NCBI GenBank assembly: GCA_038049695.1
Contig: CP142456.1
Span: 15,714,501 to 15,778,500 of the forward strand
DNA from: Cinnamomum chago
Taxonomy: Eukaryota > Streptophyta > Magnoliopsida > Laurales > Lauraceae
Length of the DNA: 64,000 nucleotides
Direction of reading: 5' to 3'
The notes under the pieces are model-generated. The model did not search any database, had not been told where the DNA came from, and worked only from the letters and a program-made list of their open reading frames with translations. Position numbers and translations under genes: made by a program. Of this stretch, positions 10,566 to 41,033 are shown one piece after another (within the stretch, counting starts at the first letter, position 1; each line of letters begins with the position of its first letter).

Positions 10566-10752
10566 TGGAATACTTGAGCTAGCCAAGCCAAATCAGGAAA
10601 ATACATCTCAAATTCAAATAATTCAACAGCTGTGTTTTTGCATTCACTGCAGCAGGTATTGGGCTGGATTTGGGCGGTGGTGTTGAATGTGTTGGACTAG
10701 AGCCTTGCATGTCGGTGATGGTGGAATTGGATCTAAAAAACGATAAAATAAA

Positions 10753-10850
10753 GGGGATTTGACCGTACAGGTTAGAAAATACCCTGTATTCCTTAAAATG
10801 GTGTTGACTAAAAAGTTATCCCAAATATGAGGATCGTAATATGGGGATCG
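10753..10850 (+). repeat. MULE left terminal inverted repeat
   Basis: It pairs with the complement of 40927-41024. Shared blocks include TTGACCGTACA, CTGTATTCCTTAAAA, GTTGACTAAAAAGTTAT and AAATATG. By eye about four of five bases agree over about 95 bp. Confidence 0.88.
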
Positions 10851-10856
10851 TACAAA

Positions 10857-10857
<1 letters not shown>

Positions 10858-10891
<34 letters not shown>
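10858..10891. repeat. (CT)n microsatellite
   Basis: About 17 CT units just inside the left MULE terminus. Simple repeat, also producing spurious open frames on both strands. Confidence 0.9.
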
Positions 10892-10895
<4 letters not shown>

Positions 10896-11345
10896 CTTTT
10901 TTTTCTTCTGATTTTACCCTTTTTGTGCGATATCGCAAATATTTGCAATTTCGCAAAAACTGAGCAGTCATTATATTCGTTGCTCATAATCGCTGCTCGT
11001 TTTCCCACCTGTTTTTCCTCCGTTTCTAGCAGAGAGCATGTCGTTTTCCCTCATTGTTTTTCTGTGGCTATCTCCATCGCCAGAGGGAGGTTCTCAAGAG
11101 GATTAAGCGATCACTCTTTCATTTCTTTAAAAGTATATGAAGGTTTCTATACTACTCCTCTTCCTTTTTCTCTTCCATTTGTTTACTTTTTTGCTGTAAT
11201 GAATTTAGCTTGAACAAGGGATATATCCATGATGTCAATAATTTGTGGGATTTTGCTGTTTATGTGCCCTTGTTGGGAACTATTTCTCATGAAACCATCT
11301 TCATGTGATGGGATGCGGAAATCAAGAGTTTCATTCCGTTCACCT

Positions 11346-11510
11346 CTGTGCCAAAAATAAGAAAGAAAAAAAAACATGGGTTTTTTTTTATTGTCTTTTT
11401 GTTTGTTCTTTTGTTTTTGTCATATTTTATTTTGATAAACTAAAAACAGACTCAAACAAATTCTCCTAAATACTTGGTCTAACAAGACTTATTCTAAACT
11501 CCTAACACCC
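11346..11510 (-). repeat. Copia 3' LTR portion with polypurine tract
   Basis: On the minus strand the purine tract AAGGGAGGG is followed by TGTTAGGAG, the usual start of a Copia 3' LTR. A/T-rich LTR-like sequence continues to the right-hand insertion junction. No second LTR is present for comparison, so the far boundary rests on the 13-bp flank repeat. Confidence 0.55.
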
Positions 11511-11596
11511 TCCCTTAAATTGAATGTACTTCTGACAATCAATTTAGAGATAAACATAATCACCCACCCTCAAACTGTAGTATCCATCGAACACAG

Positions 11597-13850
11597 TCAA
11601 AGTAGCTGCCGCAGTGTCATGAAAATGGACAATTTGAGGGGCTTGGTCAGAATATCTGTAAGTTGATTCTCACTTCTGCAGTACATTAGATCAATGGTTT
11701 CATCCTTTGAAAGATCACGTAAAAAATGATACCGTACATCAATGTGTTTATTTCTTCCATATAGAACAAGATTTTTTGAGAGTTTGATTGTTGAAATGTT
11801 ATCACAGTAGACTATAGAGTGGTCGCTTCTTGGTGCGTGTAGGGCGCAATCCTGTTGACTGTAATTCACAAGATATAACATCTGGTGGATGAGGTAAGCT
11901 TGTGGAAATGGAATGTGGTGGTCGTGGTTAACTACTTTCTACTTTCTCAATATCAAAATTCACAGGAATTTGTTGCCCTGAACTATTAACAGTCTACTGC
12001 CTTGAACTATTAACAGTCCATGTCTTTTCTTCATAAAAAATGACATATCGACTGATGATGAGCTTCTTGATGATGGGTTTATATAATTTGTAGGCCTTTG
12101 AATTCTCACTAATCCCGAGCAAAATACACTTTTCTCTTTTATCATCAAGTTTCTTCCCTCTTTCATCGGGAACATGTGCATATGCGATGCACCAAAAAAT
12201 CCGCAAGTGATCGACGCTCGGTTTTCTACCACTCCATGCTTCTTCAGGTGTCATATTTTTTACAGCTTTGGTAGGGCTCCTGTTTAATAGATGAATACTC
12301 CACAAGACCGTCTCAGGCCAGAAATGCTTAGGAAGGAATTATCTATGCAGCATACTCCTCACCATATTTAAGATTGTTCGATTCTTCCTCTACGCAACCC
12401 CATTTTGTTGCGGGGTGTAAGATGTTGTGAGTTGCCATTTGATGCCATGAGTTGCCATTTGATGCATGAAGCTTGTAGAAATTCCAAATTCCTTGGAGTT
12501 GTATTCTCCACCACAATCTGATCGAATAACTTTAATATGTTGCCCAACTTCTTTTTCAACAAGAGCTTTGAAATGTTGGAATACTGAAAAATATTCAGAT
12601 TTTTCCTGCAAAAACTAGACCCATGTTTTTCGACTAAAGTCGTCAATAAAAGTAATAAAATATCTTTTATTGCCATTAGATGGTGAATCTATAGGTCCAC
12701 AAATATTGGAATGGACTACCTCCAATGGCATTTTGGATCGCTATGCTTTTCCTTTTGGGAAGGAATCGCGATGTTGTTTGCCAACAACACAATCTTCACA
12801 AACTTGCGGATGATGATCAATCTGTGGAAGTCCAGTCCAATCACCATATTTTTCTGATAAAGAGTCTTCAGACTAGTGAAGTTGAAATGCCCATAGCAAA
12901 AATGCCATAACCAAGCTGAATCTTTCAACATGGCAGAGAAACAAGGAAGAATGTCATTTTGGATATATATAAGGGAAACATTCGATTTGTTGTCATCTGA
13001 ACTTGAGCAACCTGGCCCTTTTTTGCATCATGTATTTGACAGGTCCCATCCTTAATAAGGATCTCATAACCCTTTTCTTGAAGTTGACCCACACTCAGCA
13101 AATTATTTTTCAAACTCGGAACATAAAACACATTTAAAATAGTTTGTTGTGATTTTTTTTATGTCCAGATTTTAATGTTGCCCTTCCCCATAACAGAAAT
13201 TGTGGAATCATCTCCAAATTTTACAAAGGTTCGGAAAGAATCATCCAGATCAAAGAATATGGACTTGTTTCCACACATATGGTTACTTGATCCTGTGTCC
13301 AAGTACCACATGCTCTGATGGGTTTCTTCCGTTACATTGCAAACCATAAGAAGTGTAACTTCATCTTCTTTCTTACAAAATTTGATTTTCCACCCTTTTC
13401 TTTATATAATTTTGTTTGACATTTGGAACAATAATGACCATACCTGTTACATCGGTAGCATTTAACTTTTGACTTATCAAATGGCTTTGATTCTTGGTCT
13501 CCTGCATGATTATTATCTCGTCCTTTGCCTCTGCCTTCGGGATCAAAAGCTTGATTATCCTGTATGAATTGATCATCGTTGTTGCTTCTTCCCCTTCCTC
13601 GACTAAATCCTTCCTTTTTTGAAAATTGGGTGCTGAAAGAAAGTTGTGACTGCAATGCTTGTTCTACTGCTACATACTCATCAATTCATCGATTGAAAGT
13701 GTGTCAAGATCTTTTGACTCTTCAATCGAACACACCACATAATCAAACTTCAAGGTCATCAATTGAAGAATCTTCTCAATTATGGTGACATTAGCCATCT
13801 TTTCTCCATTGAGTCTCATGTCATCGGTAGCACTTAATTTATCTCCTTTC
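11597..13850 (-). pseudogene. Copia gag-pol pseudogene (RT domain deleted)
   Basis: Read on the minus strand from 13850 down. A gag tail (EEILQ-type helices; VVCSIEESKDLDTLSIDEL) is followed by a CCHC zinc knuckle CYRCNRYGHYCSKC, then the aspartic protease motif WYLDTGSSNHMC near 13300. Next come the GAG-pre-integrase HxxxGH region near 12900, the integrase core with SDCGGEYNSKEF and TPQQNGV (12390-12611), and the integrase C-terminal region NRSPTKAV...PEEAWSGRKPS (11994-12305). Then it jumps directly to the RNase H end SIVYCDNISTIKLSKN...KHIDVRYHFLRD (11597-11881). The reverse transcriptase between integrase and RNase H is missing, the junction falling near 11885-11960. Several frame changes and stops make it non-functional. 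Confidence 0.9.
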
Positions 13851-14428
13851 TTTTGTTTTTTTTTTTGTCATATTCCGTTCACCTTTGGTCTTTATTTCAA
13901 CAATATTTGTAAAGCTTCTTAGATCATTAGAATGCCATCATGATATGTTACTTTGTAAATGCCTGAGTCACAAAGTTTTCACAAAAGCAAGGCCAATTTA
14001 TTTCAAAATTTTCAATGTTATCATTTGAAGAGGTTTGAGAAAAAAAGGTGTCAGCATCTGTTTATTTCAAAAGGGTGAGGTGTTCGTCCAGTGAGCCTGA
14101 TTCACTTCCAGCGCAATGTTGGAGACGACAATGTAGTTAGTATGTCAGCACTGAACATGAGTCCATATATGCTGATGTCCTTGTCAAGGCCTTCTAAGTA
14201 AACCAATAAGTTATTGATTTTCTCTAGGTCCGATTCAAGACGAACCATGTAGAATATGAACAAAGAGACTTGGGGATGCAAGAGGCATATATATATATTT
14301 GTCTGTGTGCGCGGGTGTGAGTTATAACATATATGTGGTGAACTCCAATTCTATCAGAAATGTCTTACAATGCTACTCATCAATTTTCTGACATTTGATC
14401 CAATTCTGAACTTCTTTATTATTACAGG

Positions 14429-17090
14429 ATGTCCGAAAATGAAATATGTTTGATATTGCACTTTAATGGTGATTTGAATATTGATCATGTAAATCCTGTA
14501 TACATGGGTGGCGAGCAGAGAATCATATTCGTTGATAATTATAACATAAGTTATAATGCAGTAGTTGAACAAATAATTACAAAGATGAATTGGGATGAAG
14601 AAGATGAGTATCCACTGATATGATACATGTGTCATATCAATCGGATATTCACATTGGTCAATCTAAAAGGCAATGGAGATATGCGGAGTATGCTCAGATT
14701 AAACCGTGAATGAACTGACCCCATATTGTTGTATCTCTGTAAAAGTTTAGAAATTTTAGAAAGAACTAAGAAGCCCACTGCACGGTACGCATTAATTTGT
14801 TTTATACATTTTTCTTAATGAAATCTAAATTTCCTCTAATTCATGAACTTCTTCCTATTGTTCATTTTGAAGTTGTTTAAATCGCACATCTCCGAGGGCA
14901 CGCATAAGTTGCAGATTATTTACGAAAGTTGACAACGAAAGAGTTACTCCTGAAGCAACGGTTTGTTCCCATAGGTATGCTATGGCTAACACAATTGAAA
15001 TCTATTCTATTTCGAAATAATTTTATAGAAGAAGGCGATCTTATTGCTCAATTAATTATGCATGAATAATCTTCCAGCGACACCATCAATTCAGCTAAAT
15101 TCGAATAGATCATCACCATTTGATGATCATCAAAATGAAACCACACGCATAAATGGTGATGGAGCACAAATATTTTCTTATGGTGATGGCCTTGACTCAA
15201 TTTTTCAAGAAGATTGTCACAGTGGTCCATTTAACTTGATTGGCTTGAATATGAATATGCATCTTCCTCAACAACCAGAGATAGCTTATGTTCAACAAGA
15301 GATTATTGGAGAGTCATGTAATGCAACTCTAAATTTGAATCTAGTAGACACATTGGTACTTGATTCCCTTGTTCTGGAAGATGATCAGAATATTAACTCC
15401 ATGCATGAGATGTGGACGGGAAATTTTTTTTCCAACCGCGATTCTTTAAGAGAAGCACTTGCAAAAGCTGCGATGTATGATAATTTTGCAATGAAACTCT
15501 TTAGAACATCTCCAACAGAAGTTACAGCACAGTGCAATGAAAGTAACTATCCTTGGCGTATCCATGCAACACTTGTTAACTCCGACCCAGAATTTCAGGT
15601 TAGGACATACAATGGTGCTCATGCTTGTTCGAAGCCAATGATGGGGCTTGGACATGGGGAAGCAACATCTAAATTCATTGTAAGGTGGATGATAGACAGA
15701 CTACATATCCATGAGTCATGTACACCCAAAGAAGTTAAAACTGACTTCTCAAAGGAGTTTGGGGTTCAACTTAGCTACAAGAAGGCATGGAAGGCGAGAG
15801 AGATAGCACTCGATGAGATACGGGGTCATACGAACAATCATTCAGCATATTACCAGACTATTGCCATGAATTGAGAAGGACTAATCCTGGCACTGTGACG
15901 CATGTGATCCAAGAAGAGGATTCAACATTCTGCAGATTTTTCTTTTCTTTGGAACAAGTATAGAATCATTTCGTTCCACGTTGAGGCCATTAATTGCAGT
16001 TGATGGGACACACCTTCGTGAAAAGTATCTTGGCGTGCTACTCATTGCTGTGACTCATGATGGAGATCATGGGATATTTCCAATAGCGCTCTGTATCGCG
16101 GAGATTGAGAATTTCAAAACTTGGGAGTGGTTCTTGGCCGCCTTCTCACTAGCATTGCGGCCGCCCCAAAACCTAACAATTGTGTCTAATCAAATGAAAG
16201 GACTCACAAGGGCTATTGTGGAACGGTTTTCAGATGCCAACCATTGTTATTGTGTGCATCATATTTCAGAGAACATTCGTGAAAGATTCAAAGATGATGG
16301 TATTTGTCGAAAGTTTTGGAATGTTGCTCATGCGTTTAGACTATGTGAGTATGAACGTCATATGAATGACATTAGAACAGTTAACGATGGGGCATATAAA
16401 TACATTGAAGATATTGGAAGGCACCATTGGGCCAATGCTTTTGTATTGGGAAAGCGATAGGACATGCTCACGACAAATTGTGCCGAGGCCACAAATAGTT
16501 TGCTCAAGGGGGCAAGAGAATTGCCCATAACTAAAATGGTCGAGGCAATTTGTTCTAAACTCATGAAATTTTTTGAGCTTCATCGGCAAAAGTCTCATGT
16601 TCTTAATTCCAAGATAACTCGTTATGCTAAGTCTATGTTGAGCAAAGAGAGTGAACATGCTCGTAGACTGGGTTTTCATGCAGCCAGTCCAACTGAAATT
16701 GAGGTCCACTCCAGTGAGTATGTAGACATTGTTCACTTGGACCGTCGTTCTTGTACCTGTCATCAGTGGGAATTGCTTGGAATTCCTTGCTCGAATGCTG
16801 TAGCGGCACTTAAGATGAGAGGTCTCGATCCATATGACAACTGTGAGCAGTGGTTTACCTCTGATATGTATAGAAGGACTTACAACTTTGTTATACACGG
16901 TGCGAGAGATATGAACCAATGGGATGTGAGAACTGGTTCACATGTGCCTCCTCCTCATGGAAAGAGACAAGCTGGTAGACCGAAGAAGAATAGGATACGT
17001 ACAGAGGATCGTGGGAGGAACCAAGTCACTTGCTCCAGATATAAGTAGAAAGGCCATAACCGTCAAACATGTCGCAATTCATCTATACAG
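14429..17090 (+). pseudogene. MuDR-type MULE transposase pseudogene
   Basis: An N-terminal PB1-like domain starts at 14429 (SENEICLILHFNGDL...YMGGEQRIIFVD). After an apparent intron (about 14784-15027) come the acidic linker and the MuDR DNA-binding domain (FSNRDSLREALAKAAMYDNF...YNGAHACSKP, 15420-15870). The MULE DDE domain follows (PLIAVDGTHLREKYLG, CYCVHHISENI, 15981-16460), then a SWIM zinc finger (SCTCHQWELLGIPCSNAVAAL, about 16750-16810) and a basic GRPKKNR tail with a degraded zinc knuckle. Damage: stops at 14621 and about 14708, a frameshift between 15874 and 15981, a stop at 16458, and a stop in the final knuckle. The second catalytic Asp of the usual SD(R/Q)xKGL motif is Asn (SNQMKGL). 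The SWIM finger has Asn where CxH expects His. It is the defining gene of the surrounding MULE and could not be active. Confidence 0.92.
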
Positions 17091-17612: not shown

Positions 17613-17639
17613 TCAACGTTTTATTACACAGTCCAAACT

Positions 17640-18575
17640 AGGAGCTAGACTTCATATATAACAAGTAAAATCCATAGCAAACCTGGGAGGCTAATTCAGT
17701 GCATTTTGTGCGATATCGCATAGTCTCACTATTCTTTATGACTACAATTGCGACTCTATTTGATTTTTTAAGCAACTCAAACCTTCTCTTATGAAGTAGG
17801 AAGCATGCAATTAGACCTCATTTGGAGCAAGTAAAATCCAAAGCAAACATGGGAAGCTAATTCAATGCATTTTGTGCGATATCCGCACAATCACATGGCA
17901 TCTTATAAAAAAAAATGAAGTTTCAGAATGCTTCACTATATTATTTGTGATTGCAGTTGAGACTCTATTCGATTTTTTAAGTAGCCTAGACCTTCTCTTA
18001 CAAAGTAGGATGTCATGCAGTTAGACCTCATATGGAGCAAGTAAAATCCACACCAAACATGGGACTGTAATTCAGTGCATTTTGTGCGATATCGCATAGT
18101 CACTTGCCACTTACACAAAAAATGAAGTTTCAGAATGCTTCACTTTAATTTTGTGACTATAGTTGGGACTGTATTCGATTTTTTAAGCAGCCCAGACTTT
18201 CTCTTACAAAGTAGGAAGCATGCAGTTAGACCTCATTTAGAGCAAGTAAAATCCAAATCAAACATGGGAGGCTAATTCAATGCATTTTGTGCGATATTGC
18301 ACAATCACTTGGCCACTTACACAAAAAATGAAGTTCCAGAATGCTTCACTGTATTTTTGTGACTACAGTTGAGACTGTAATCGATTTTTTAAGCAGCTCA
18401 GATCTTCTCTTATGAAGTAGGAAGTCATGCAGTTAGACCTCATATGGAGCAAGTAAAATCCACAGCAAAAATGAGACTGTAATTCAGTGCATTTTGTGCG
18501 ATATCGCACTGTCACTTGGCCACTTACAAAAACACTGAAGTTCCTGAATGCTTGACTGTGTTTTTGGTGAAGTAC
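17640..18575 (+). repeat. Tandem array, about 205-bp unit, 4-5 copies
   Basis: The landmark AGCAAGTAAAATCCA (first copy AACAAG..) starts at 17660, 17826, 18036, 18241 and 18448, giving spacings of 166, 210, 205 and 207. The first unit lacks about 40 bp around the AATGAAGTTTCAGAATGCTTC block. Each unit also contains CATTTTGTGCGATATCGCA, with the 12-bp palindrome TGCGATATCGCA perfect at 17709, 18085 and 18497 and one change in the other two units, followed by TTCGATTTTTTAAG and a CTTCTCTTA block. It lies between two convergent MULE genes, in their shared 3' region. Confidence 0.92.
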
Positions 18576-18849: not shown

Positions 18850-21800
18850 GAAATATTTTAGGACTCGAAGAAATATAAATATAATTGCTTCTGTCTTTGG
18901 TAGATGTCTGTCACAATCTTCTGTCGATAGTACCATATATTAGCTTGCGTGTATTCAATGGCTCATCGATATGCAACATGTTCCGCATTAGCCATCGTAA
19001 AAATACCGCAATCACAACTGCACATAACAAATAATAATATAAATATTACGTATTATGATGGATCATAAGGAATATCGACGATTACAAGTAAGATAGGGTT
19101 TTTACTTGTTATCTTGCTAGGGATTTGGATTTCTTGTCTCAAAGTTATAAAACACGGGATCACACCATCCAATATCAAGAAACTTCTTTCGAAGGAATTC
19201 AACTTAACAAAAAGTAACAGTATTAAGTAGATGCAAGAGTAATGTGATGGAAATAATCAAGATAGATGAGATTACTTACAAAATGATGTGCATAATCATC
19301 GTAACTTGTACATCCCATCATGCTATTGTAGTAAACAAATTTCCATTCTTTTGGATATCCAATTATAACAAAGAAGTGATGCTTGAACCATATGGGGAAT
19401 ATTATAGTCTCAAACGTCCAAAAATCATGATTTTTATTACATGTAAACATAAGATCAATCTCTACAGTTTTTTGTTGAACTTCAAAGTGCTGTTTGGTAA
19501 AACAATATTGACACGTTAGTTCAAATAATAAATAGAAACAAACCTCTGGTAGACATATAAAAAACATAGACATATTAGAAATTTAAATAAAAGCATTGCT
19601 GTACCACAAGAGTGCTAGGAAAAAACAACGTGTCTACGCAACACTTTCTAACTATGAACAGTCAATAGTCCATAATCTACATCACAAGTCATCTAAAGTA
19701 AATTTTATTATAAATTAAAAAAAATATTTCTAACTAATATGCACTTACAAGTGTATCCATCCATGACTTTTTTAATGTTTGGTGCATTTCTTCTTTAGGA
19801 ATAGTCGAGCATATATCTTCTAGGATTGGATTGCTGTAAATTGAAATTTATATCTGTCTATATTAGGAAAACTTATCATAAGAAAAAGAAATCGGTGATT
19901 GAAGTTTAAGTAGTAGAACTTGCTTTGAATACAAACGTATCCAAAATTCTTCTAAACACGATTTCTCGGCAAGATTAAGGCAGTACTTCGGGTTCGGGCA
20001 GTTGACTTTTGTCCTCTTATTCTTCGGTACATAGTACAGGGATTTCAATATAGGAATAACAGTTGCCTTCCTAGGATTGGCCTTCATTCGACTGACAATA
20101 GATCCCATCTTATTTTTCCCCAATCTTTGACCAATAAACTCATCAGGTCCACCTAGAACAATGAAGTCTTTACTCCAACTTTTGGGGGTGCTTAAATTAA
20201 ATGGGATCTTGCTCCGAGCACCTTGAGGTGTGCTAACATGAGTTGATGTCCGTGGGTATGGTGATAATCCATAAGAGCCATCGCGTGATCCAACGGGGGT
20301 TTTAGGTGATGGACTTCTCACATCCTATAAGAAAATCATGAACAAGCTTTATCATATAGACATGAAAATAAACGAAAACATTTTTCTATCACACACAGCG
20401 ACATACTAACCGCCTTTCCTGCCTCATCAAAAGTAGAGTTGATGCAATTTTCTATGTTAAAGCTAACAAAACTTGATGACCATGCTTTTTTGAACATTTC
20501 GACCTTCCTCTACATACTCTTGACGAAGCGATTCATCTGAGAGGGGTCTACCATCTTCTCCAACTTATCAAAACTCTCGAGCTGCCAATCGAGGAATCTG
20601 TCAACCTGTGGACACAATTAATTAATCCAATCATGAGCATGGTGCTCACCAACACTAACAACAAAATTAAAGCCTACTCATCATATCTTATGCTGGGTGG
20701 AGCTGTCATGATCCAAATGTACTCTTTCCAACGGCCAACTGATTCAGTTTTTTGTAATTCTTCTATACCATTGCAGGTACTAATCCCGATGGCAGCCATT
20801 AACTTCATCCTTTTATGCATTTACAACATTCATGCCCTATTGTTCCAATCTGCTATAGGTTGTGCATATTTTCTCTCAAAGTTTATAGCCCTCTTGGATA
20901 ATTTTTTTCTCCACCCTCATAGTTGGATGAAATGGAGGAGGGACATGTTGCTTTAGTCCAAATTTCTTAAGCACGCAGTCAACATTATGTCTCTCGACGA
21001 CCATATAATTGATCATTGACACTGCAGATCGAAAAAGAGATATATCCACTTCATTTACACAAGCTTCCAACTCATCACTGTACCGGTCATACGACTGCAA
21101 ATCAAACTATAAGTTATAAAGAACATTTAATGAAGGTTAGATAGATTATATGTACAAGAATGAACAATAAACAATCTTGAGAAATAACTAACTTATGCTG
21201 TCAACATCTTGCGTGTCAAGTTGCCTCCGAACCTCTCCCACATTTGTGAGAATGTGATGATCCTTCAGTCTTTCTTCCTACATCTTGAACAATGGGGATT
21301 CTAGTTGAATGTCCTCCATGTTTTTTGATATTGAACAGCCGATCGACATCCTCAAGTATGCCCATATCTGTGATGAAAGAAGGATATATTTAAAAGAAAA
21401 ACAATAACAACTCAAGAACATATATTGATATAATGCAATGATTAGGAAATCTTTTTAGTTACCTGTAATAGTTGAAGTGGCCCTGTGACTGTCTTTACTC
21501 AATCTTTGATTCTCGATGGCCGGGTCAAGCTCCTATATAGATTTGCTAGGCAAGCAGGCCCCCAACCATATGGTTTGAAATCTTCAAAAAGCTCAATCAA
21601 GTAAGCATTACCCCTCGAGTCAGAAGTGTTTGTACAAATCTGAGACGAAACAAGATGAAATAGATATGAACGTGTGTGCCTGATCTCAACTGCTTGAGAC
21701 GGTCTTTTGGATAGGTCTTTGAAGTTGTCGTGCAACCATTTCAAGTTTATTTGTCCCCTTTGGAATTCGGACGGATTGGGGGCAACACCCAATAGGTCAA

Positions 21801-25692: not shown

Positions 25693-25697
25693 AATTT

Positions 25698-28718: not shown

Positions 28719-30200
28719 GAAGGTCAGCTCTTGGATGTGTTATAAGAGCACAAAAGTGCAATCGGCTGGTCTGTAGCCGATTTGAAAGGCATTGACCCCT
28801 CCATCTGCATGCACCGCATTCATTGCGAAGATGACGTGAAGTCGTCACGTGAAATGTAGCGTCGCTTAAATCCTAACATGATAGAGGTGGTCATGAAAGA
28901 AGTATTGAAGCTTCTTGATGCAGGTATTATATACCCAATTTCTGACAGCAAGTGGGCGAGCCCCACTTAGGTGGTGCCAACGAAGTCTGGCATCACAGTT
29001 GGGGAAAATGAGAACGGGGAGCTAATTCCCACACGAACCAGTACTGGGTGGCGCGTGTGCATTGATTATCGAAAGTTGAATTCTATGACCCGAAAGGACC
29101 ATTTTCCACTACCTTTCATTGACCAGATCTTGGAAAGGTTAGCTGACCAAAGTTTTTATTGTTTCCTGGATGATTATTCTGGATATAACCAAGTGGCCGT
29201 CTACCCTAATGACCAGGAGAAAACAACCTTCACTTGTCCTTTCGATACATTCGCTTACGGGCGGATGCCATTCGGACTTTGTAATGCACCCACGACTTTT
29301 CAACGGTGTATGATGTCTATTTTCTCTGACATGGTGGAGAAATTCTTAGAGGTGTTTATGGATGATTTCTCTGTTTTCGGACCTTCATTTGATGAATGTC
29401 TCCATAATTTGGCAAAGGTGCTGAAACGTTGTACAAAGACAAACTTGGTCTTGAGTTGGGAGAAAAGTCATTTCATGGTATGTGAGGGCATCATTTTAGG
29501 GCATATCGTTTCCGCTAAAGGCATTGAGGTGGATAAGGCCAAGGTTGATCTTATATCCAAACTTCCACCTCCCTTGTCGGTTAAGCAAGTTCGATCCTTC
29601 TTAGGACATGCAGGGTTTTACCGTAGATTTATTAAAGACTTTAGTAAGATTTCTTGACCCTTGTGTGCATTGCTCACCAAGGAGGCCTCTTTTGTCTTTA
29701 ATGAGGCTTGCATGCAAGCTTTTGAGAAGCTTTGTGAGGCCCTGTCCACCGCCCCTATCATTCAGTCACCAGATTGGGCCCATCCGTTTGAGATTATGTG
29801 CGATGCTTCCGACAATGCTGTCAGTGCAAACCTGGGCCAATGGGTGAACAAGGTTCCACATGTCATCTATTACGCTAGCAAAACCCTCTCCGATGCCCAA
29901 CTGAATTACACCACGATGGGGAAGGAATTGTTAGCTGTTGTGTTTGCCTTGGATAAATTTCGGTCTTATCTGTTAGGATCGAAGGTCATAGTGTTCACCG
30001 ACCATGCCGCGTTGCGGTACTTACTGTCCAAAAAGGACACTAAGCCAAGATTGATTAGGTGGATTCTATTACTTTAAGAATTCGACTTTGACATTCGGGA
30101 CAAGTAAGGTTCCGAAATCAGTGTAGCTGACCACCTATCTCGGATCTTGGTGGAAACTACAGAAGACACCTTACCCTTGCCTGACTCATTTCCCGATGAG
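28719..30200 (+). pseudogene. Gypsy pol: reverse transcriptase and RNase H pseudogene
   Basis: Same frame as gag. Reverse transcriptase motifs: WRVCIDYRKLN (about 29049), FPLPFIDQ, FLDDYSGYNQ, FGLCNAPTTFQRCM, and the catalytic box as FMDDFSVFG (about 29355). RNase H follows: [14 protein letters not shown] (about 29790), [39 protein letters not shown]. Stops at 28716, 28743, 28857, 28968, 29655, 30075 and 30105 interrupt it without frameshift. The frame is cut at 30242 by a solo LTR and resumes at 32009 with integrase. Confidence 0.93.
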
Positions 30201-30242
30201 AAATTATTTATGGTGTCCCAAAATCACCCCCCTGGTATGCTC

Positions 30243-32003
30243 TGTTAGGAATTTTGTATATTGCAATTTGATGGATGCATTAACATTCTAGCATCGTTTG
30301 TTTTACACACATATGCATTGATTTTGAAAAACTTGAAATCTTGATTTTACATGCATTGGTTTTTAGATTTGTAAAAGTATTGAGTTTTGCATGTTTTGTT
30401 TTTAAACTTGGATGCAATTAGATTTGAAAAGAGATTTATCAAATCAAGTAAGCCATTGGTTTAAAGTTTTGAATCATTTTAGGCTTTTTAAGTTTCATGA
30501 AGGTTTGAGCTCAATGTTTCCTTCTTTCATATGTTTTAACCTTAAGCTCAAATTCATTCAAGCTTTCCAAAGGTTCTTTCTTTACAATCATTATTTTGAT
30601 TTGGAGTTTTCATGACTTTAGAATTTCAGTTTTCATCCTTTTTCAGTCATGAATTCTTGCTTGATAAAAGTGTCTCAAAGTCCCTTGGAAGATGCCCTCA
30701 TAAATTACAAGTTTCTAAAAAATCAGGAATTCTAGGCATGCACCAGGTCGACCTGCCTGTGTGGCCGGTCGACCGGGCCAAGGGACCCGGTCGACCGAGC
30801 ACACTGCGGGTCGACAGGGAGTTTTGTGCTGAAGCCTCTCCAACGGATATTTTTCTAGCCGTTGTGTGTACCAGGTCGACCCGGGGGTCATGGGGTCAAC
30901 CGGGCCAACTAGTCGTTGGACTGTTTTTTGGTTTAAAGTCCATTCTTTTCCCATCTTTTGTGAGGCTTGTTGGATGAACTTTTGAGACCATTTTGGAGCC
31001 TAAGAAAGGGGAATGAGGTGATAAGGCTAGAAGGCTTTTTGAAAATCAAATGCTTGAGTTTTTAAAAGGTACATCTTACTAGTTATTTTGATTTCCATTC
31101 AAATTGAAATCTATGCATGTTTAAATCTTTGTATTTTCATAAATGCATGATTTCTAACTTCTTAAGAGTTGTTTAGCCAACTCAATATCATCTTTGGTAA
31201 ATTAGATTGGTTTGCAAACTCTCATGTCTAATTCACATGTGTTCTTAGACTTTAATATTCATACAACTTGTTTTAGTTCATTTCTTTAAGTTGTTTGAAT
31301 CTTTCATGTGATTAGCATTTATCTTCAATCATCTTTTTCTAAGCTTTGATTTTAAAATGCATCAAGCATTCATTTAAGAGCTTCATTGTAGAAATTGATT
31401 CAAGTAAAACATTCATACACTTGTACACACACTTTAGCTTATTTTAGTGTATGTTTGTAGTTTGAATTACACTTTCATATTAGCCTATTTAAGAGGAAAT
31501 TTCATTGAGCTTATATTGTATCTCTTAGAGTGATCTTTTGTGAAGACACCTTCTTAGAGAAATCTTTCTTTTGTAAAGGTTATTGCTAAGCCTAAGAAAA
31601 GCATTGTGTAAAGGTTATTGCTTAACCTAGAAAAGCATCTTGTAAAGGTTGTTGTTGAGCCTAAGAAAAACAACATTGTAAAGGTTGTTGTTTAGCCTAG
31701 AAAAACAACATTGTAAGGGTTATTGCTTAGCCTATTGAAAAGCATAACTAGTGGAAATCCGGTGGGATGATTGGATCACAAGCCGGTAGTGGACGTAGGC
31801 ATTGAAGCCGAACCACTATAAACCTTTGTGTTGTGGTGTATGCTTGTGGTGATTGTTTATATTAGCTTCCGCATCTTGTTTGATTAATCATCACATGTGA
31901 CTAGTTTATGTTAAGGAATTAAAATTTGTCTTAATTGGTCACATTTTGTAGCTCACCCTATTCACCCCCCCCCCCCTCTAGGGTTTGGATCCCAGGACTT
32001 TCA
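30243..32003 (+). mobile_element. Solo LTR, SIRE-like Copia family, copy 1
   Basis: 1761 bp, begins TGTTAGGAATTTTG and ends GGACTTTCA, flanked by the 5-bp duplication TGCTC (30238-30242, 32004-32008). It contains GCCGAACCACTATAAA, a repeated AAAGGTTATTGCTTAGCCT minisatellite (about 31573-31745), a poly-C run and a CTAGGGTTTGGATCC end typical of SIRE/Maximus-type LTRs. It also has GGTCGACC palindromes at 30746-30900. No internal region or second LTR belongs to it. Confidence 0.9.
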
Positions 32004-32008
32004 TGCTC

Positions 32009-33240
32009 ATATTGTGAATTATCTAGTCGTGGGGGCGATTCTTTCAAATTGGTCCAAGCAGGACAAGGATCGTTTCTTCTCCCAGGTAAAGATGTATTTT
32101 TGGGAGGATCCCGAACTTTTCAAGTTCTGTCCAGACCAAGTGATCAAGCGATGTGTACCCGAGAGTGAATATAACAGTACACTTACTGTCTGTCACTCTT
32201 TTGAGTGTGGAGGGCATTTCAGTGGGAAGAAAATCGCTGTGAAAGTTTTACAGAGTGACTTCTATTGGCCCACTCTTTTTCAAGAAGCTCATCAGTTTTG
32301 CAAAACTTGTTTACGCTGTCAGCAAACAGGTAACATGTCTAGGAGGGACATGATGCCCTTACAACAGCTTTTGATTGTAGAAATTTTTGATGTGTGGGGC
32401 ATCAATTTTATGGGACCGTTTCCGCCGTCTTTTGGTTTTCAATACATTCTAGTGGCGGTTGATTACGTGTCCAAGTGGGTGGAAGCGGCTACTACTAAGA
32501 CTAATGACCACAAAGTTGTGGTCAAATTCCTGCAAAGTAATATTTTCAGTCGCTTTGGCTGTCTGCGAGCAATAATAAGTGATGAGGGCACCCACTTCGT
32601 GAATAAACACTTCGAAGCGCTGGTAAAGAAATACTCCATCACACACAAGGTGGCTACACCTTATCATCCTCAAACCAGCGGCTAAATCGAAGTGTCCAAT
32701 AGGGAGGTGAAGCGTATCTTGGAAAAAAATGGTGAAACCCGACCGCAAAGATTGGTCTTTGCGGTTAAATGATGCTTTATGGGCATATCGTACTGCTTAC
32801 AAGACTCCAATTGGTATGTCCCCCTATCGATTAGTGTTTGGCAAGGCTTGCCACTTACCAGTTGAACTCGAGCACCGCGCCATGTGGGCCATCAAGCAAT
32901 TCAATTTTGATATGGCCGCTGCCGGTTCTACTCGGAAACTCCAACTCAATGAGTTAGAAGAGATTCGGAACGAAGCCTACATTAGTTCTAAAATGTATAA
33001 GGCGCGGACTAAAGCTTTCCATGACAAACACATTTTGCGAAAGTCCTTTGAGCCGAATCAAAAGGTATGGCTTTTCAATTCCAAGTTGTGACTCTTTCCA
33101 GGTAAAATGCGGTCAAGATGGGATGGACCGTATGTGGTAACCAAGGTTTTTTTTATCATGGTGCAGTAGAAATTCGCAACCCCAACACTAGGAGTTTTCT
33201 TAAAGTAAATGATCAATGATTGAAATCCTATGTTGAGGGT
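32009..33240 (+). pseudogene. Gypsy pol: integrase pseudogene
   Basis: Continues pol after the first solo LTR ([18 protein letters not shown]). The H2C2 zinc-binding region (HSFECGGHF...[11 protein letters not shown]) is followed by the integrase core: [13 protein letters not shown] with the first Asp, [12 protein letters not shown] with the second, and EVSNREVK with the Glu. The C-terminal part [25 protein letters not shown] ends in a WDGPYVV-type module. Damage: stops at 32683 and 33089 and one frameshift in an A run near 32725. No chromodomain is evident. Confidence 0.92.
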
Positions 33241-33266
33241 ATTACTGCTGGTGACGTAGTGGAGTC

Positions 33267-35395
33267 TGTTAGGGATTTTGTGTTTTGCAATTTGATGGAT
33301 GCATTATCATTTTAGCATCATTCGAATTTTCACACATGCATTGTTTTAGAAAATCTTGAAATCTTGATTTACACATGCATTGTTTTTAAGACTTGTAGAA
33401 ATATTGATTTATGCATGTTTTAATTTTAAACTTGGATGCATTTAAATTTCAAAAGAAGATTTTCGAATCACGCTTGCCTATGGTTTTAAAAGTTTCAAAT
33501 CAACTTAGGCATTTTAGGTTTCATGTTTTTTCTAACTCTTAGAATGACTTAAAACATGTTTCCAGGTTTGATTCAATGGCCTAGACCTCCAAGACCAAGT
33601 TTCCTTTTCAAAAATCAATTTTACGAATCTTTATAATCAGGGAAAGCTCGGTCAACCGAACCTTTGTCGGTCAGCTGTCGGTTCCGATTCCAGAATATGA
33701 AATCTATGTTTTCTGGGAACTTCGATCAGCTGTCGGTCAAGTGTTGGTCACCTGTCGGTTGACCGAACTTCAGTTCGGTTAACCGACAAGTGTATTTCGG
33801 TCAGCAAACTTTTGAAATATTTGACTGTTGGATTATGACCGTTGAGTTCGGTCGACCGACAAGCTAGCCGTTGGACAAAATTTTCTATAAATTAAAGTTC
33901 ATTCCTTACCCAAATTAGAGGATCCAAGGGATTCTCCTTGAGGTGTTTTGAGGCTAAACAAAGGAGAATGAGCTAAGGGAGGCTAGTTGGTCAAAAAGGG
34001 AAGCTAAAGCTTGGAATCATAAGTAAATCTTCTATGTAAGCTTAGTTTTCATTTTCATATGTTTTTATGCTTTGCTTAAATTATTAGTAAATCTTTTTAA
34101 GCATGTTAACTATGATTTGTTGTGTCCTTAACATGTATTTGTTTTGAATTGATTTATTGTTTCGGATGCATCACCTTGATTCAAACCAAGTAGTTCTCAA
34201 ATGGGTCTATCTAAGTAAATCATGTTAATGAAAACATCTTTGAAATTATATGTAACATGATTCCTATATTTGGTTGAATCTTTGGTTTTTGTTTTTCATC
34301 AAAAGAAAATCACTTTCAAATCTATCTTATGTTTTGGATTCAACAACTTCAAAAATCACATGTATTTTGTTTTAAAGTTTCACACAACTTGCTTAGCATT
34401 GATATACATCTTTTTCAAGTTGGTTTTTAAATAACATGTGATTTGTTCATTCACTTCAATCAAATCTATTTTTGTGCTTTACACTTTCAAATGCTTGTCG
34501 CATACATATATTGAGCTACAATGTTAATTTGATTAAAACTCTTATGCATCACATGTTTTGTTTTTAGAATTTCACAACTTGTTTAGAATACATAGGTATA
34601 TCTTTTACAAGTTATTTTTAACATGTGATTAACATTCTTTCCTCAATCACAAATGTTTTTATGAGCTAAAACTTTTAAAAGCCTTTGGCATACATTTATG
34701 AGCTTTCATTTTCAAATTGATTGAGAACATCATACATACACATTGTGCATTCATATTTGCATTCATAGTGTGTGTATGTGAATTGGATTTTTCACTTTCA
34801 TATCCGCCTAATCAAGAGGCATTGTAATTGAGCTTAAATTGTATCTCCATCAAATGTATTCTAGACACTCCTCAAAGGGAGATCCAACCTTCAGGTTGCA
34901 TAGGTCATTGCTTAGCCTAAAAAAGCATAGTGTATAGGTTGATGTTAAGCCTTGAAAAACATCAGTTGTAGACACTACTCAGAGGGAGATCCAACATTCA
35001 GGTTGCATAGGTCATTGCTTAGCCTAAAAAAACATAGTGTATAGGTTGATGTTAAGCCTTGAAAAATATCAGTTGTAGATGTTATTGCTTAGCCTTAGAA
35101 AGCATATTGTAAAGGTTATTGCTTAGCCTATTGAAAAGCATAAATAGTGGGAATCCGGTGGAGTGCTGGATCACAAGCCGGTAGTGGATGTAGGTATTGA
35201 GGCCGAACCACTATAAATCATTGTGTGATGGTGAATGCTTTGCGATGATTATTTTTGTTAGCTTTCGCATTTTAGTTCTATATCATCACTTGTGACTAAT
35301 TGAATTAAAGAAGTTAGAATTGGTCATAATTGGTCACTGTTTTGAAGCTCACCCTATTCACCCCCCCCCCTCTAGGGTTCGGATCCGAACTTTCA
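33267..35395 (+). mobile_element. Solo LTR, SIRE-like Copia family, copy 2
   Basis: 2129 bp, begins TGTTAGGGATTTTG and ends GAACTTTCA, flanked by the 5-bp duplication GAGTC (33262-33266, 35396-35400). Same family as 30243-32003: shared start, TTTGATGGATGCATTA, GCCGAACCACTATAAA and poly-C/CTAGGGTT end. It is longer because of expansion in the GGTCATTGCTTAGCCT minisatellite (34880-35140) and the middle. It carries GGTCAACCGA/CGGTTGACCG-type inverted motifs at 33640-33870. Confidence 0.9.
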
Positions 35396-35400
35396 GAGTC

Positions 35401-36217
35401 CATTACGCTGATGGACCCGTCCTATCTTGTAGACTAAAGTTACTTGACGTCAGGCTGACGACGTTAAACCAAGCTCTTGTAGGAGGAAACCCGAGTGTAG
35501 ATAGGGTCGTAGGGTAGGTGTCGTCGACTTTTAGTCCTTTTTGTCGTCAAAATTGAGTCCATTTTGAGTCATCCATGTTGGAGGAGGGGGATGCCTTTAG
35601 GTGGTTAGTCCTCACCATTGAGAGAGAGTTTTGGTTTAAAAAAAAATTCTAGGCGTCTGGACGCCGAAAATTCAAATAAAAAAAAATTCGTGGGACACAT
35701 CTTAAGGAGCAGCCCTTCCCCATTCTCTTTTCCTTCTCTTCAAACCCCCTTTTTCTTTCTTTCTCTCCCACAACCAACCCTCATCACCACATACACACCT
35801 ACCACCCTCCTCCTCCTATTTTCTCCACCACCATTGCATTCCTCTCCTTCCCCTCTTCCATTCTCTCTCATTCTTTCCTCATACAAGTGCCACCGGAGCC
35901 TACATTCCCGCCGGTGGCATCCACTCTTTCCGGTTAGATCTACTGGCGCTCGAGGCTCTCCAACCATTTGAAGCACTTGGGTTCTCTTCCCCACGTGCTC
36001 TTCTACGTGCCGGCGGTGCCCGTTTGTCTCCAGCCAACTTTTCCGGTCATCTTCTCCGGCGACTTCACCGGAGCTCCGACGAGCAATTTGTGGGTAAATT
36101 TCTTTTTAATTGTTTTTCTTTATTGTTCTTTTTCTTTTATCTTGCAATTGTGTTAAGTTGTTTTAGGTTTGTTTTTCCTTATTCATTGTCACTTCCATTT
36201 GAAAAAAAAAACACAAA
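35401..36217 (+). other. Gypsy spacer between pol and the extra ORF
   Basis: Contains the end of pol, GACGTTAAACCAAGCTCTTG and a GGAGGAAACCCGAG motif common after pol in Athila-type elements. A CT-rich leader-like stretch (35710-35880) follows, with GTGGGTAAATTTC near 36088 resembling a 5' splice donor. It may be the leader of a subgenomic or spliced RNA for the next ORF. Confidence 0.5.
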
Positions 36218-37422
36218 ATGTTTTGAAGGGGGAGAAGTAAGTCCAAGGCCCCTGCAGATGAGGGCTCCTCCAATCCACAGCCCCACAAACGGAGTGCATC
36301 CACTCCTACCCTTGAACAACCAGATGCGGAATGGGTCAATCGGCCCTTAAAAAAGCAGACCACATTTGATTTGAATTTTTTGAAGTCGACTAATCCACAC
36401 ATTGGGCGGTTGAACAATTACGTCTGCGTCAATTGACAGCTTTGTGTGGACCTTTTCCCCCGGTGTACCCCCGTTTGGTACGCCTTTTCTACCACAATTT
36501 GGAAATATCAGGGCAGAATGGCGATGTCCTATCCTCCACCATTAATGGACATTACGTTACTTTGACCGAGGAGGACATTGCTCATGCCCTCGGCTGTAAC
36601 CCCGGTGCAGGTAACTTTCCATTTTTTCCAGCCACCCCCACTGTAGCCAGTATCACCAACGAGATGTGTGGGGGTCGGTTTAGCAAGGCAAACTACATGA
36701 GCACTCGTCGTAGTTACCTGCCTCAAAGGATGTGGCTGATAGATCAAGTGCTGCGTGTAAATGCATTTCCCACACATCACAAGGATGAGAGGAGGGTGGA
36801 CTTCCTCGTGACTATGTACGCTATCCATGTCGGATACGCTGTATCTCTCCCGCATATGATTTTTCAGGAAATGTGCAAAGTGTATAGGCTCTTTAAAGAG
36901 TCTAAAAAAGATCCGGAGAAGAAGAGGCCTTTGCCTTTTCCTCATTTGCTCACCATGTTACTTCTCACTTGTTCGGGCCTATTGGTTGTCCCCTATCCCA
37001 TTTCACCTGATGAGGAGTCTATCCCATGCTCTGACAGATACGGTGAGGTGCGATGGACACAGAGTGTCCAGACCATTCTGCGTAATATGCAGCACACTCA
37101 CCCTGCTATGATGCCGAGAGTAGACGCACCTGTGGTTGAGCCACCGGTGCCACCTCAAGCCCCTCCTGTTGTACACCCTCTTGCGGGGCAGGCTGACCCA
37201 TTTTACATGACCTTTGCCCAATACAAGGCTATCCTCCAAGGTCAGCAGGCCCTCCAATCCCGTCAGGTGGCTTTTGAGTCCCGCTTTGCAGACTTTGCCA
37301 CTCGTACTACAGACTCTCTTTTCGAATTGAGATCTTTAATGAGAGGTCTGCGTGGCCTTTCCCCTCCCCACAGAGATGATCACATGCAGGATGGAGGTGA
37401 AGGGGATGGGGAGGATGATTGA
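36218..37422 (+). pseudogene. Extra ORF downstream of pol (plant retrotransposon accessory protein)
   Basis: Frame from ATG 36218, which has a stop at codon 3, runs through a basic stretch (RGRSKSKAP) to about 36430. It shifts there into a 330-codon open frame ending at 37422. The body has YPRLVRLFYHNL, GHYVTLTEEDIAHALGCNPG, MYAIHVGYAVSLPHMIF and a Pro-rich then acidic C-terminus (DDHMQDGGEGDGEDD). It resembles the putative plant transposon protein domain (Pfam Transposase_32 type) found beside Athila-like pol genes; its role is unknown and it is not an obvious envelope. No transmembrane helix is evident. The early stop and the frameshift make this copy defective. Confidence 0.65.
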
Positions 37423-37630
37423 TGCTGTCTCGTTTTCTTTTTAGGTAACATTTTCTTTTTAGTTTCTATATTTGTGTTTCTAGATTGTTGCTAACATTTT
37501 GCAGGTTCTTTATTGCAAGTTGGGGGGTCTCCTCGACTTTTCTTTACTATGCATCTTCTGTTTAGCGGGTACCCAGGTGATATCCTTCCTTTCAATTTAT
37601 TTTTCGTTTCCTTTACATTTCATTTTAATG

Positions 37631-37670
37631 TTCAACATTGTGGACAATGTTAGGTCTAAGTTGGGGGGTG
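37631..37670 (+). promoter_or_regulatory. Hairpin plus internal polypurine-tract-like motif
   Basis: AACATTGT-GG-ACAATGTT, a perfect inverted repeat, is followed by AAGTTGGGGGGTG. The same AAGTTGGGGGG core occurs at 37516 and directly before the 3' LTR at 38770-38782, where it is the true polypurine tract. The internal copies may be additional plus-strand primers. Confidence 0.55.
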
Positions 37671-38767
37671 AGGTAGTCAGTTTTGAGTTAGTTTCATTAG
37701 TTCTTTGAGTCTTTTTCATGTATTAAAAAAAAAGAGTTAGAATTTTGTTTTGTTTGTAAGTCTTGCAGGAGATTTCTAACCGGGTTTTTATGAAACAAAG
37801 ATACCCTGATTTTTTGAACTTTTTGCTAGGAAAAAGAGAAAAATGGTTCACCGTCTTGTTTTAGGAAAGAGTTTTTGAGAAATTGCTGAATTATTGATCT
37901 CTCACTTAACACGTATTATATAGAAAATTTGAAATGTGAATTAAACTATGATTTCCATACTAGTGAAAACTTCAGAACAATTATGATGGAAAGTTGACCC
38001 TCGGTCATACTTAAGTCAGGCATATGGAAAGGGCTACCTATTGTTAGGGACCGTATTAAAAAAAAAAGAGTTGTGACTAGTTTGGGTTCGTAGCCTTTTT
38101 AGCCCGAGTCAGTAAGCCCATAGGGGTATTGCCATACCTAGTGCCCTAAAGACATCTATTTTGGGGGTCATTGGCTGAATGCTCGTTACATGGGTTAACT
38201 AGAAATCTTAAGGGACCTAGGCATTGCATAGTCATTTAAAAAAAAAAAAGAGAAAAAATCAAAATAGTGTTGTCACGTCCTTTGAAAAACAATAGTGTGA
38301 AAGCCACCACAAATGCCTTAAGAGGAATCATGTTAACTTTTACTGAGGTTCGATGGCCCAGCATTTTGAAAGAAAAAGATGTGTTTTCACGGAAATTTTT
38401 TAGTGGATCGTTTTATGCTCTACAATTTTCACCGTGCACGATTAATTTCTCGCATGATTTTGAGGATTTCTGACCAAAAGATAGGATCTTTGAACCACAT
38501 TTGAGTTGTGTATTGAAAACCCCAAAATCAGGAATATCTGGTGTTCGTAGATACCTTGATAGAAAATACTCCCTATTTTTCTTTTATGTTTTGGGAATTT
38601 TGTGGGTAGATTCACTACAAACCCTCACGAGACTATAACTCGCCCTCTAGGGGGAACTTAGAGGTTTAAAGGCTTGCTACACATGCTAAGTGCAGTCGTG
38701 CTCCCTACGAAAGTGGCATTAGTTAATTTTTCCTTTTGTTTTAGCTTTGCTCGAGGTCTGGCAAAGT
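37671..38767 (+). other. Gypsy 3' noncoding region
   Basis: Untranslated AT-rich sequence between the extra ORF and the polypurine tract. The small open frames have no motifs. Confidence 0.6.
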
Positions 38768-38769
38768 GT

Positions 38770-38782
38770 AAGTTGGGGGGTG
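38770..38782 (+). promoter_or_regulatory. Gypsy polypurine tract
   Basis: AAGTTGGGGGGTG ends exactly where the 3' LTR (TGATGAGAG) begins, the position of the plus-strand primer. Confidence 0.85.
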
Positions 38783-39910
38783 TGATGAGAGCTTAAAATG
38801 TACCATTTAGGCCCCTCAGTTTAGACTTTGGTATACACTCCTATGAGTCTAATTAGTCTAATTATGTTATTTTCATGTTTACAGGTGTTCTAGGTGCATT
38901 GGAAAGAAATTGGCGCAAGATGGAAAAAATGGCAAAAATCTAGACGAATCGGTGCTCACTGGCACCGGGCGTTCGGATGCCAGACACCAGGCGTCCGGAT
39001 GCCAAACACCAGGCGTCCGGATGCTCGGTCACAGAGACGTGCAGGAATGTTTATTCCTGGCGTCCGGACGCTAGACGCCAGGAAGCCCGGATGAAGACTC
39101 TGCCTCTAACACGTTTTGAGAGATTTTTAGGTCCAAAACCTCTAAATATAAGCCCTAATCTCGTTTTAGAGATATTCTGGAGGCTGGTTTGGGAGCTTTG
39201 GAAGAGCGTCAATGGAGATTTCGTCAGAGACTCATCGTCAACCTCTTGCCATACGTAACTAAATCTTTATCTTTGAGTTGCGATGAAGCCCTAATCTCTT
39301 GTTTATGGTGATGTATAGGTTTAGGGTTTTATTTTAAACGCTTTTGGTTATATGACAAGATGTTAATCCATTGATTGGATTTTATTAATGCAATATCTCT
39401 TTCTTTGGTATTTTAATCTTGTAGATTTGAATACTAAGTTATATAACGATGCTTTAATGAATGTGTTTGTTAGATCTATGATAATCTATGCCATAGAGAT
39501 AGGTTATGCCCCAATTTACATCCACATCCCTTATTTGTTGACTCTGAAGGTTTGTAACCAGAATGAGTCTTTATAGCATTGATAGTGAAACCCTAGGTCT
39601 ATACTTGCCATTGTGCGAGGTTAGAGTGGATTCGTACCCTGAGATCTTTTCTTTGATTGAATCAACCCTGTCTTTTTAATTTGTTAATTTAGGAATTACA
39701 ATCAATCAACCCAACACTTCATTTTTTAATAGGATTAGTTTAAGAATCAGAGCTTTGTTTTCTAATAGGATTAGTTTAGGAATTTAGGAAACAACACAAC
39801 TTAGCCTTTTTGTCCTAGTGGATATGATACTCGGTTAACATCTTTGCTTTTGCAAGCAGAGATAGTAGCGGGGAATAATTTATATTTGCAACCCTATTTT
39901 AGGACGGTCA
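38783..39910 (+). repeat. Gypsy 3' LTR
   Basis: 1128 bp. Same ends as the 5' LTR. About 60 bp longer, mainly because GGCGTCCGGATGCC-like units are repeated at about 38967-39025 where the 5' LTR has a single arrangement. The TATA candidate of the 5' LTR is altered here (TCTAAATATA). Confidence 0.93.
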
Positions 39911-40926
39911 ATTATATAAGTGATTGTATTTTTTAATTTTGGTGATGCCTTTGGATTTGAATTTTACATTCATATACTTAGTTGAAAACTTTTTTTATTA
40001 CTGATTATTGACTTTTATTAAAAATCATGTTTAATTTTTATTCTATAAACTTTAGTTACATTCTATTAAAAAAAAAACAGAGAGAGAGATAGGTACAAAT
40101 ATCAAACCGCCCAACATGCCACCCAAGTCGCCACTAAAAAAACCGCCCAAACCGCCTATACTTTGGGCAGTTACAGTTTCTACTTTTTACAAACAGCTAT
40201 AAAACAAAACCGCCTAAACCGCGCAATAACTGGCCAAGCCGCCCCCCGTACACCCATACTAAACACGACACTAGAGTATTCAACTAATGAAGACATCACC
40301 AATTATTGATAATTGAACCTCATTTGACAATTTCCTCCCTTCCCTTCTTTTCCATTTAAACATTTTAAACTGGAGTCTTTGACTGGTACCGTAGTAGCCC
40401 ATTTAAACATTTTTTTCTAGAGATTTTTTTTCTAGTCATTCCTCTATGAGAGAGGATACCCAAACAAAACTAAATAAAATCTGAAACTCAAGGCAAAGAC
40501 TATCCCTACCCGCCCTCTTCCAAACCAACGTGAAATGCATATGAAAAACAATAACTCAAAAACCAAAGCAAGTTTGTAAAAACTTGCAAACACCATTGTA
40601 GCACCGCATGTGAAGCAAAATGGGAGAGAAGAAAGACAAATGCATGTTGCATTTCTTGCTATAGACAGACACCAATAGAATAGGAAAGAAGGGACTCACA
40701 AAATAGAGATAAGAAACGTTCCTGGAAGGTTAAAGACGAACGCCCCCTTTGCGATATCGAGATGGAATCGATCAAGAAGATTGGTCTCACAGTAGATGGA
40801 CTAAGGAAGATGGGACTAGGTTTTTCGTTCGTAACAATGTAAGGGTGAAAGAGGCTTCGAATGAGTTTTTACAAGGCTAGGTTTAATCTTTTAACCTTTA
40901 GGGACAAAATTGGAAAAAAAAAAGAT

Positions 40927-41024
40927 GGGGCCCCATTGTACAATACCCATATTTAGTATAACTTTTTAGTCAACGCCGTTTTAAGGAATACAGTGTATTT
41001 TATATGTTGTACGGTCAAGTCCCC
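40927..41024 (-). repeat. MULE right terminal inverted repeat
   Basis: Inverted partner of 10753-10850, ending in CCCC at 41021-41024. It is directly followed by the TAAAATAAA target duplication. Confidence 0.88.
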
Positions 41025-41033
41025 TAAAATAAA

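Follow-up and report, generated by a model that had tools for sequence, protein, structure and literature searches.

A two-gene Mutator-like element and its family in Cinnamomum chago

The stretch of DNA analyzed here (the window; 64,000 nucleotides of contig CP142456.1 in the Cinnamomum chago assembly GCA_038049695.1) contains a Mutator-like element (MULE) that carries two genes and harbors other transposons. Terminal inverted repeats (TIRs) that begin at position 10753 and end at 41024 share 84% identity over 95 bp (79 of 94 bases match), a likeness far above that of random 95-mers from the window (at most 44 matches; n = 200,000). The 9-bp target site duplication (TSD) TAAAATAAA, which has a single extra copy in the window at 48490, abuts both TIRs exactly. 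These are the inverted termini and the shared 9-bp bracket that an initial annotation had described, and both stand. Between them lie a Copia-derived fragment, a gene for a MURA-type transposase, a tandem array, a second gene that joins a plant mobile domain (PMD) to an Ulp1 (C48) protease domain, and a hAT-type element that contains a Ty3/gypsy retrotransposon with two solo long terminal repeats (LTRs). No gene was noticed in the right arm (758 bp).

In addition to the TIRs and the 9-bp TSD, the element has the MURA-type domains expected of a MULE (DBD_Tnp_Mut, MULE, and SWIM; Pfam). A protein search with the whole MURA query gave 0 matches, and the query cut to residues 215–740 gave 19; these relatives reach 55% identity, and the best one with a named organism is from Cinnamomum micranthum (49%). 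The stops and frame breaks in the window copy of MURA are incompatible with an intact transposase and, by that measure, with autonomy. An aspartate that is conserved in four of five aligned relatives is an asparagine in the window copy (SNQMKG).

Searches of the genome (1.06 Gb, 14 contigs; the window is C6:15714501-15778500) revealed that the element belongs to a family. The left TIR gave 40 scored matches of 118 candidates, and the right TIR of the window fell outside those 40; because only this portion of the candidates was scored, the family counts given here are lower bounds. The scored matches include at least 12 inward-facing TIR pairs within 35 kb besides that of the window, and 10 of these 12 enclose both MURA and the PMD exon in the order and strand seen in the window (22 other MURA matches with ≥85% identity over >900 bases were used, out of 41). 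The initial annotation had named the lack of any further genomic copy with both termini and the internal genes as what would refute it, and these 10 pairs are such copies; its central claim withstands that test. The PMD exon gave 40 scored matches of 156 candidates. Twenty-two of them, including that of the window, are ≥90% identical and merge into 19 other loci, whereas the remaining scored matches are ≤77% identical. Ten of these loci, of which there are at least 19, lie inside a TIR pair; the ≥90% matches are at most 26.8 kb from a scored TIR, and at 16 of the 19 a correctly ordered MURA match is no more than 40 kb away. Collinear probes placed by prediction in three TIR pairs all matched (6 of 6), and an exact 9-bp TSD flanks three of the five other pairs with both ends read (TATAATTTA once and TATTTTCTT twice). 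Several observations count against a two-gene family. Nine of the 19 other PMD loci have a single scored TIR nearby, and at three no MURA match was obtained up to 40 kb away; two of the 12 TIR pairs, both of which contain MURA, have no PMD exon match (one of the two, at L042, still has the Ulp1 part of the gene); and two of the five pairs with both ends read show no clean TSD.

Some copies are distinctive in other respects. The copies at C11:42556143-42568235 and C11:42679478-42691565 are 123 kb apart and have an identical target duplication, which suggests a segmental duplication instead of two insertions; the two TATTTTCTT copies are probably one duplicated region. The copies at C5:4068734-4100638 (31.9 kb) and C5:10049332-10072698 (23.4 kb) are enlarged and are probably nests too. 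At L038, a right arm is joined straight onto left-arm sequence in a rearranged derivative of the family. The idea that left and right TIR types diverge alike in other copies was rejected, since right-type ends showed no clear preference. From a 200-kb sample of contig C1, only three matches fell in the nest region, and a bacterial plasmid search gave none.

Table 1 Features of the MULE and its nested insertions (positions in the window).
Feature	Position	Strand	Remarks
Left 9-bp TSD of MULE	10744..10752	.	TAAAATAAA
Left TIR of MULE	10753..10846	+	
Motif in left arm	10926..10937	+	TGCGATATCGCA
Copia-derived fragment	11333..13884	-	between ATTCCGTTCACCT copies; resident of MULE family
MURA transposase gene, broken	14429..17085	+	limits by reading; stops 14621, 16458, 17046; frame breaks ~15880-15960
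Tandem array, 5 anchored units	17643..18566	+	period 206 bp (Tandem Repeats Finder); motif core or variant in each
Second gene, PMD joined to Ulp1 (C48) protease domain	18860..22295	-	several stops; exon limits by reading
hAT TSD, left	24009..24016	.	CTAAACAC
hAT-type element, probably non-autonomous	24017..40258	.	951 bp once Gypsy and one copy of its duplication are excluded
Gypsy TSD, left	24620..24624	.	ATTAT
Gypsy 5' LTR	24625..25692	+	
Gypsy protease-like, reverse transcriptase, then integrase regions	27207..32685	+	split by solo LTR A
Solo LTR A	30243..32003	+	TSD TGCTC at 30238 and 32004
Solo LTR B	33267..35395	+	same family as A; TSD GAGTC at 33262 and 35396
Gypsy additional late open reading frame after integrase	36394..37422	+	matches Transposase_32 (PF20167)
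Gypsy 3' LTR	38783..39910	+	then ATTAT at 39911
hAT TSD, right	40259..40266	.	CTAAACAC
MULE right arm	40267..40930	.	motif variant TGCGATATCGAG at 40750
Right TIR of MULE	40931..41024	-	
Right 9-bp TSD of MULE	41025..41033	.	TAAAATAAA

The PMD-Ulp1 gene and the motif array

The second gene lies on the strand opposite MURA; the two genes are convergent, and the array is located between them. When read exon by exon, the second gene contains a whole PMD (PF10536, 5.4e-55) and a partial Peptidase_C48 domain (PF02902, 2.1e-7). Its closest proteins are P0001 and P0002 of Cinnamomum micranthum, with which it forms one clade (support 100/99); identity to P0002 is 86%. Both domains are present within single proteins in P0001, P0003, P0006, and P0011. 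Among relatives of the PMD-Ulp1 and MURA proteins, P0003 and P0021 carry an annotation as intact. An alignment of P0003 with SENP1 revealed that the histidine and cysteine positions are retained and that an asparagine occupies the aspartate position; these positions in SENP1 are presumably the catalytic ones. The four Cinnamomum micranthum proteins that contain both domains are named serine/threonine-protein phosphatase 7 long form, and Pfam at an E-value of 0.001 detected PMD and C48 but no phosphatase domain in them. No paper that joins the PMD with Ulp1 or peptidase C48 was found among the papers listed from the open literature searched; PMC7156037 does speak of genes in which a PMD is fused with a protease domain.

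Units of the array (~206 bp) contain a conserved palindromic core, TGCGATATCGCA, that is also found near the left end of the MULE. All exact GCGATATCG sites of the window are inside the shell formed by the MULE (10927, three in the array, and 40751), and the window holds nine matches over both strands compared with 0.09 expected. In the three copies of the array that were read, the 12-base core is unchanged in 10 of 13 units; the median 12-column window is unchanged in 2 of 13. Its mean column identity is 0.981 against 0.847 overall (rank 5 of 133 windows), and windows neighboring the core in TGCATTTTGTGCGATAT are unchanged in up to 11 of 13 units. The number of units varies: five are present in the window, the C11 copy has two over the stretch that was read, and the C2 copy has six or more; arithmetic on probe spacing suggests ~7 and ~8 units for the C2 and C1 arrays. 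Motif-bearing tandem repeats of variable number, a feature of VANC-type MULEs, are thereby present in the three copies read.

The motif is distributed unevenly between the two arms. The core, with no more than one mismatch, lies 116–172 bp inside the left end in all 18 other left-type loci. Among the 11 other right-type loci, five have TCGATATCGC at 261–377 bp and one has a variant at 748 bp. Three motif hits were found in the flank of L045. A number of results temper the significance of the motif. It is weak in the right arm, and the stretch read at five of the 11 right-type loci contains none. A 10-mer that the right arm shares with both the left arm and the array arose in five of 1,000 shuffles. 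Some 12-mer common to both arms turned up in 139 of 2,000 shuffles and in 16 of 755 real pieces, which is not rare. When the left arms are aligned, the first core takes rank 19 among 127 windows and the second rank 65, no better than average. Because the arms are homologous, agreement of the motif among left arms is not an independent sign of constraint. Stronger evidence comes from the array statistic, with the proviso that units can be homogenized together.

The protein that would recognize the array may be the product of the second gene, acting against silencing, or the transposase itself. Binding of MURA to the array, as a transposition site or as a decoy, is a serious possibility that falls somewhat short of being probable. 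It agrees with the core near the left end of all 18 left-type loci, but fits less well with the right-type loci, six of which have a core with one mismatch and five of which have none. The position of the array also speaks against it, since transposase sites do not usually lie in the interior of an element between two genes.

Order of insertions in the nest

The Copia fragment matches Pol_BBD and SH3_retrovirus above the Pfam cut-off and gag and the integrase core below it; a zinc knuckle and RNase H were recognized by eye. The 13-bp sequence ATTCCGTTCACCT that the initial annotation had noted at its edges is indeed found at 11333 and 13872 and has only these two copies in the window. Two additional 13-bp direct repeats, three in total, occur at the same edges and allow readings other than a single 13-bp duplication. 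Copia sequence is found at the same place in 16 of the 18 other left-type loci, and the left edge in 17. In L046, the Copia edge and ~20 bases give way to a short-period repeat that is unrelated and rich in CGATCGATCGG, and the alignment of L048 reaches only 11126. The right edge is visible in five loci with the 13-mer identical or changed by one base, and other left-type loci have lost parts of the Copia sequence through internal deletion. No Copia-empty site was seen among the 18 loci read. The presence of the fragment at the same place in family copies indicates that it traveled with the family, and the Copia piece was aboard before this MULE insertion. It follows that the shell is 14.0 kb (14,022 bp including the Copia piece, by arithmetic) rather than the 11.5 kb (11,482 bp without it) previously proposed, and that the nest is four levels deep instead of five; its deepest chain runs from MULE to hAT to Gypsy to solo LTR.

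How the fragment entered an ancestor of the MULE is a separate matter. Copia elements usually generate target duplications of 5 bp, and a 13-bp duplication would be more in keeping with a LINE-type retrocopy of Copia RNA from which the reverse transcriptase region is missing. The gag match begins at profile position 109 of 172, and no reverse transcriptase match was obtained in the seven pieces scanned. L1-like retrocopies of genes are described in dicots, as the available text of PMC4838847 states. Nevertheless, such an origin is rather doubtful: no clean poly(A) tail was seen by eye, the target duplication is made ambiguous by the two other 13-bp repeats, and a simple deletion explains the missing reverse transcriptase. 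The proposal in the initial annotation that the Copia piece was inserted independently into this MULE copy after it had landed, which is favored by the direct repeat with just two copies in the window, is contradicted by the family copies, since it is not credible that many copies were hit independently at the same base position.

The remaining insertions took place within the MULE. CTAAACAC, the 8-bp duplication of the hAT element, occurs at 24009 and 40259, and the window has two further copies. The site of this insertion is spanned by five of the 11 other right-type loci and is empty in all five, with sequence equivalent to window position 24016 joined directly to 40267. A single CTAAACAC remains in two of these loci and a one-base variant in three; two of the five loci are the duplicated pair. 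A rearrangement ends L038 ~10 bases before the site, and five right-type loci do not reach it. Insertion of hAT into the MULE is thus proven. The hAT termini are alike in 6 of 11 terminal bases by manual count; its 951-bp body contains no open reading frame of 150 or more amino acids, and no domain search was made. That the TIRs belong to two separate elements that flank the stretch by chance, as could be supposed from TIRs that are alike but not identical and from the short right arm, is scarcely conceivable in view of the matching TSD, the direct junction in the five right arms, and the pairs that enclose both genes; other genomic copies contradict it.

The Ty3/gypsy element displays a pair of LTRs, a 5-bp TSD, and reverse transcriptase ahead of integrase. 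Its primer site and the position of its late open reading frame make it a candidate for the Athila-like lineage. Its LTRs differ at 42 of 1,049 sites (Kimura two-parameter distance [K2P] 0.041), which corresponds to ~3 million years (My) at 7e-9 per site per year. The rate of 1.3e-8 quoted in the available text of PMC3903597 gives about 1.6 My. Solo LTRs A and B are single LTRs with TG..CA ends and a 5-bp TSD and have no internal part. They belong to one family and are strongly diverged (K2P 0.47); their starts coincide exactly with the start of a match at a third genomic place (L004). The flanks of solo LTR A form one open frame across 29 codons. The 5-mers ATTAT, TGCTC, and GAGTC are frequent in the nest region (49, 32, and 26 copies), and the duplications count as evidence only because they adjoin LTR ends. 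The duplications of the hAT, Gypsy, and solo LTR insertions were found where the initial annotation had placed them, and its order of MULE, hAT, Gypsy, and two solo LTRs holds, as does its claim that the MULE is complete end to end beneath later insertions.

There is good support for cut-and-paste insertion of the MULE and for later insertion of the other elements in series, and we are highly confident that a two-gene family MULE landed with Copia aboard and then received the hAT, Gypsy, and LTR insertions one after another. In this sequence of events, a MULE of a genome-wide family that already bore the Copia fragment would have transposed and produced the 9-bp duplication. A small hAT element would then have inserted in the right part of the MULE, and the Ty3/gypsy retrotransposon in hAT. 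Finally, two LTR retrotransposons of another family would have inserted in Gypsy and collapsed to solo LTRs.

Outside the nest, positions 800-944 and 10386-10530 form an inverted pair of a short A-tailed repeat that by eye is tRNA-type SINE-like. LINE-type open reading frames with RVT_1, zf-RVT, and RVT_3 domains are found at 47092-50112, and an open reading frame for a malectin-like receptor kinase, open across 874 codons, is located at 6088-8712.

Relation to known systems

Several known elements share parts of this organization; the likenesses are described here as far as the available text of each source extends. ULP1 domains occur in other Mutator-like elements (KI-MULE of Arabidopsis and MULEs of grapevine, melon, and rice; PMC2528002), which likewise have mudrA and a ULP1-type gene downstream and share the 9-bp TSD. 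Here, the ULP1-type gene is reversed and its ULP1 domain is joined to a PMD. KI-MULEs lack TIRs (PMC2528002), whereas the window MULE has them and is accordingly not a KI-MULE; ULP1 is also present in grapevine TIR-MULEs (PMC2528002). In VANDAL elements, the VANC genes that have an Ulp1 domain are called KIU (PMC13317346), and there too the second gene of a MULE bears Ulp1. KIU is said to recognize non-coding DNA motifs and to lower methylation of related copies (PMC13317346). Those are non-TIR elements of Arabidopsis, and the text covered does not mention the PMD; moreover, the function of KIU is shown, while that of PMD-Ulp1 is presumed by comparison. With VANDAL elements and VANC (PMC5735166, PMC10398659), the family shares a MULE, an extra gene, and motif tandem repeats of variable number in non-coding DNA; the motif differs. 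PMD-MULEs of grasses and Amborella (PMC5418596) also bear a PMD, which in those elements is fused to the transposase; here it is joined to a C48 domain in a gene of its own that runs opposite to MURA.

The array and the second gene resemble VANC/VANDAL anti-silencing elements. MURA would act on the TIRs, and the PMD-Ulp1 protein may be an accessory factor, plausibly anti-silencing, that recognizes the array motif; this role is inferred from VANC/VANDAL, KIU, and host PMD silencing factors. It is tempting to extend the analogy to a family-specific mechanism in which the PMD-Ulp1 fusion, akin to host MAIN and MAIL1, would bind TTTTGTGCGATATCGCA in the expandable array and remove silencing, perhaps by deSUMOylation. 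In this full form the model is speculative, and we consider it unlikely on present evidence.

Coding MULEs of maize and rice also contain other transposons (PMC3903597): in the text available, nested insertions are reported in 191 of 530 coding MULEs of maize (36%) and 195 of 476 of rice (41%), and 107 of the 195 rice cases are copies of one lineage. The window nest differs in belonging to another plant and in its four-level chain. Because nested MULEs are common, the nest itself is ordinary; it is a clean, datable example of a common phenomenon. Its Copia fragment illustrates that short direct repeats around a fragment are no proof of late insertion, for family copies reversed the order. The family is more notable: one genome holds ~20 PMD-Ulp1 loci, of which 10 are enclosed by paired ends along with a transposase gene, and the motif array varies among the three copies that were read. 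The speculation in the available text of PMC5418596 that MULE-borne PMD proteins fight host silencing gains in this array a defined candidate DNA target.

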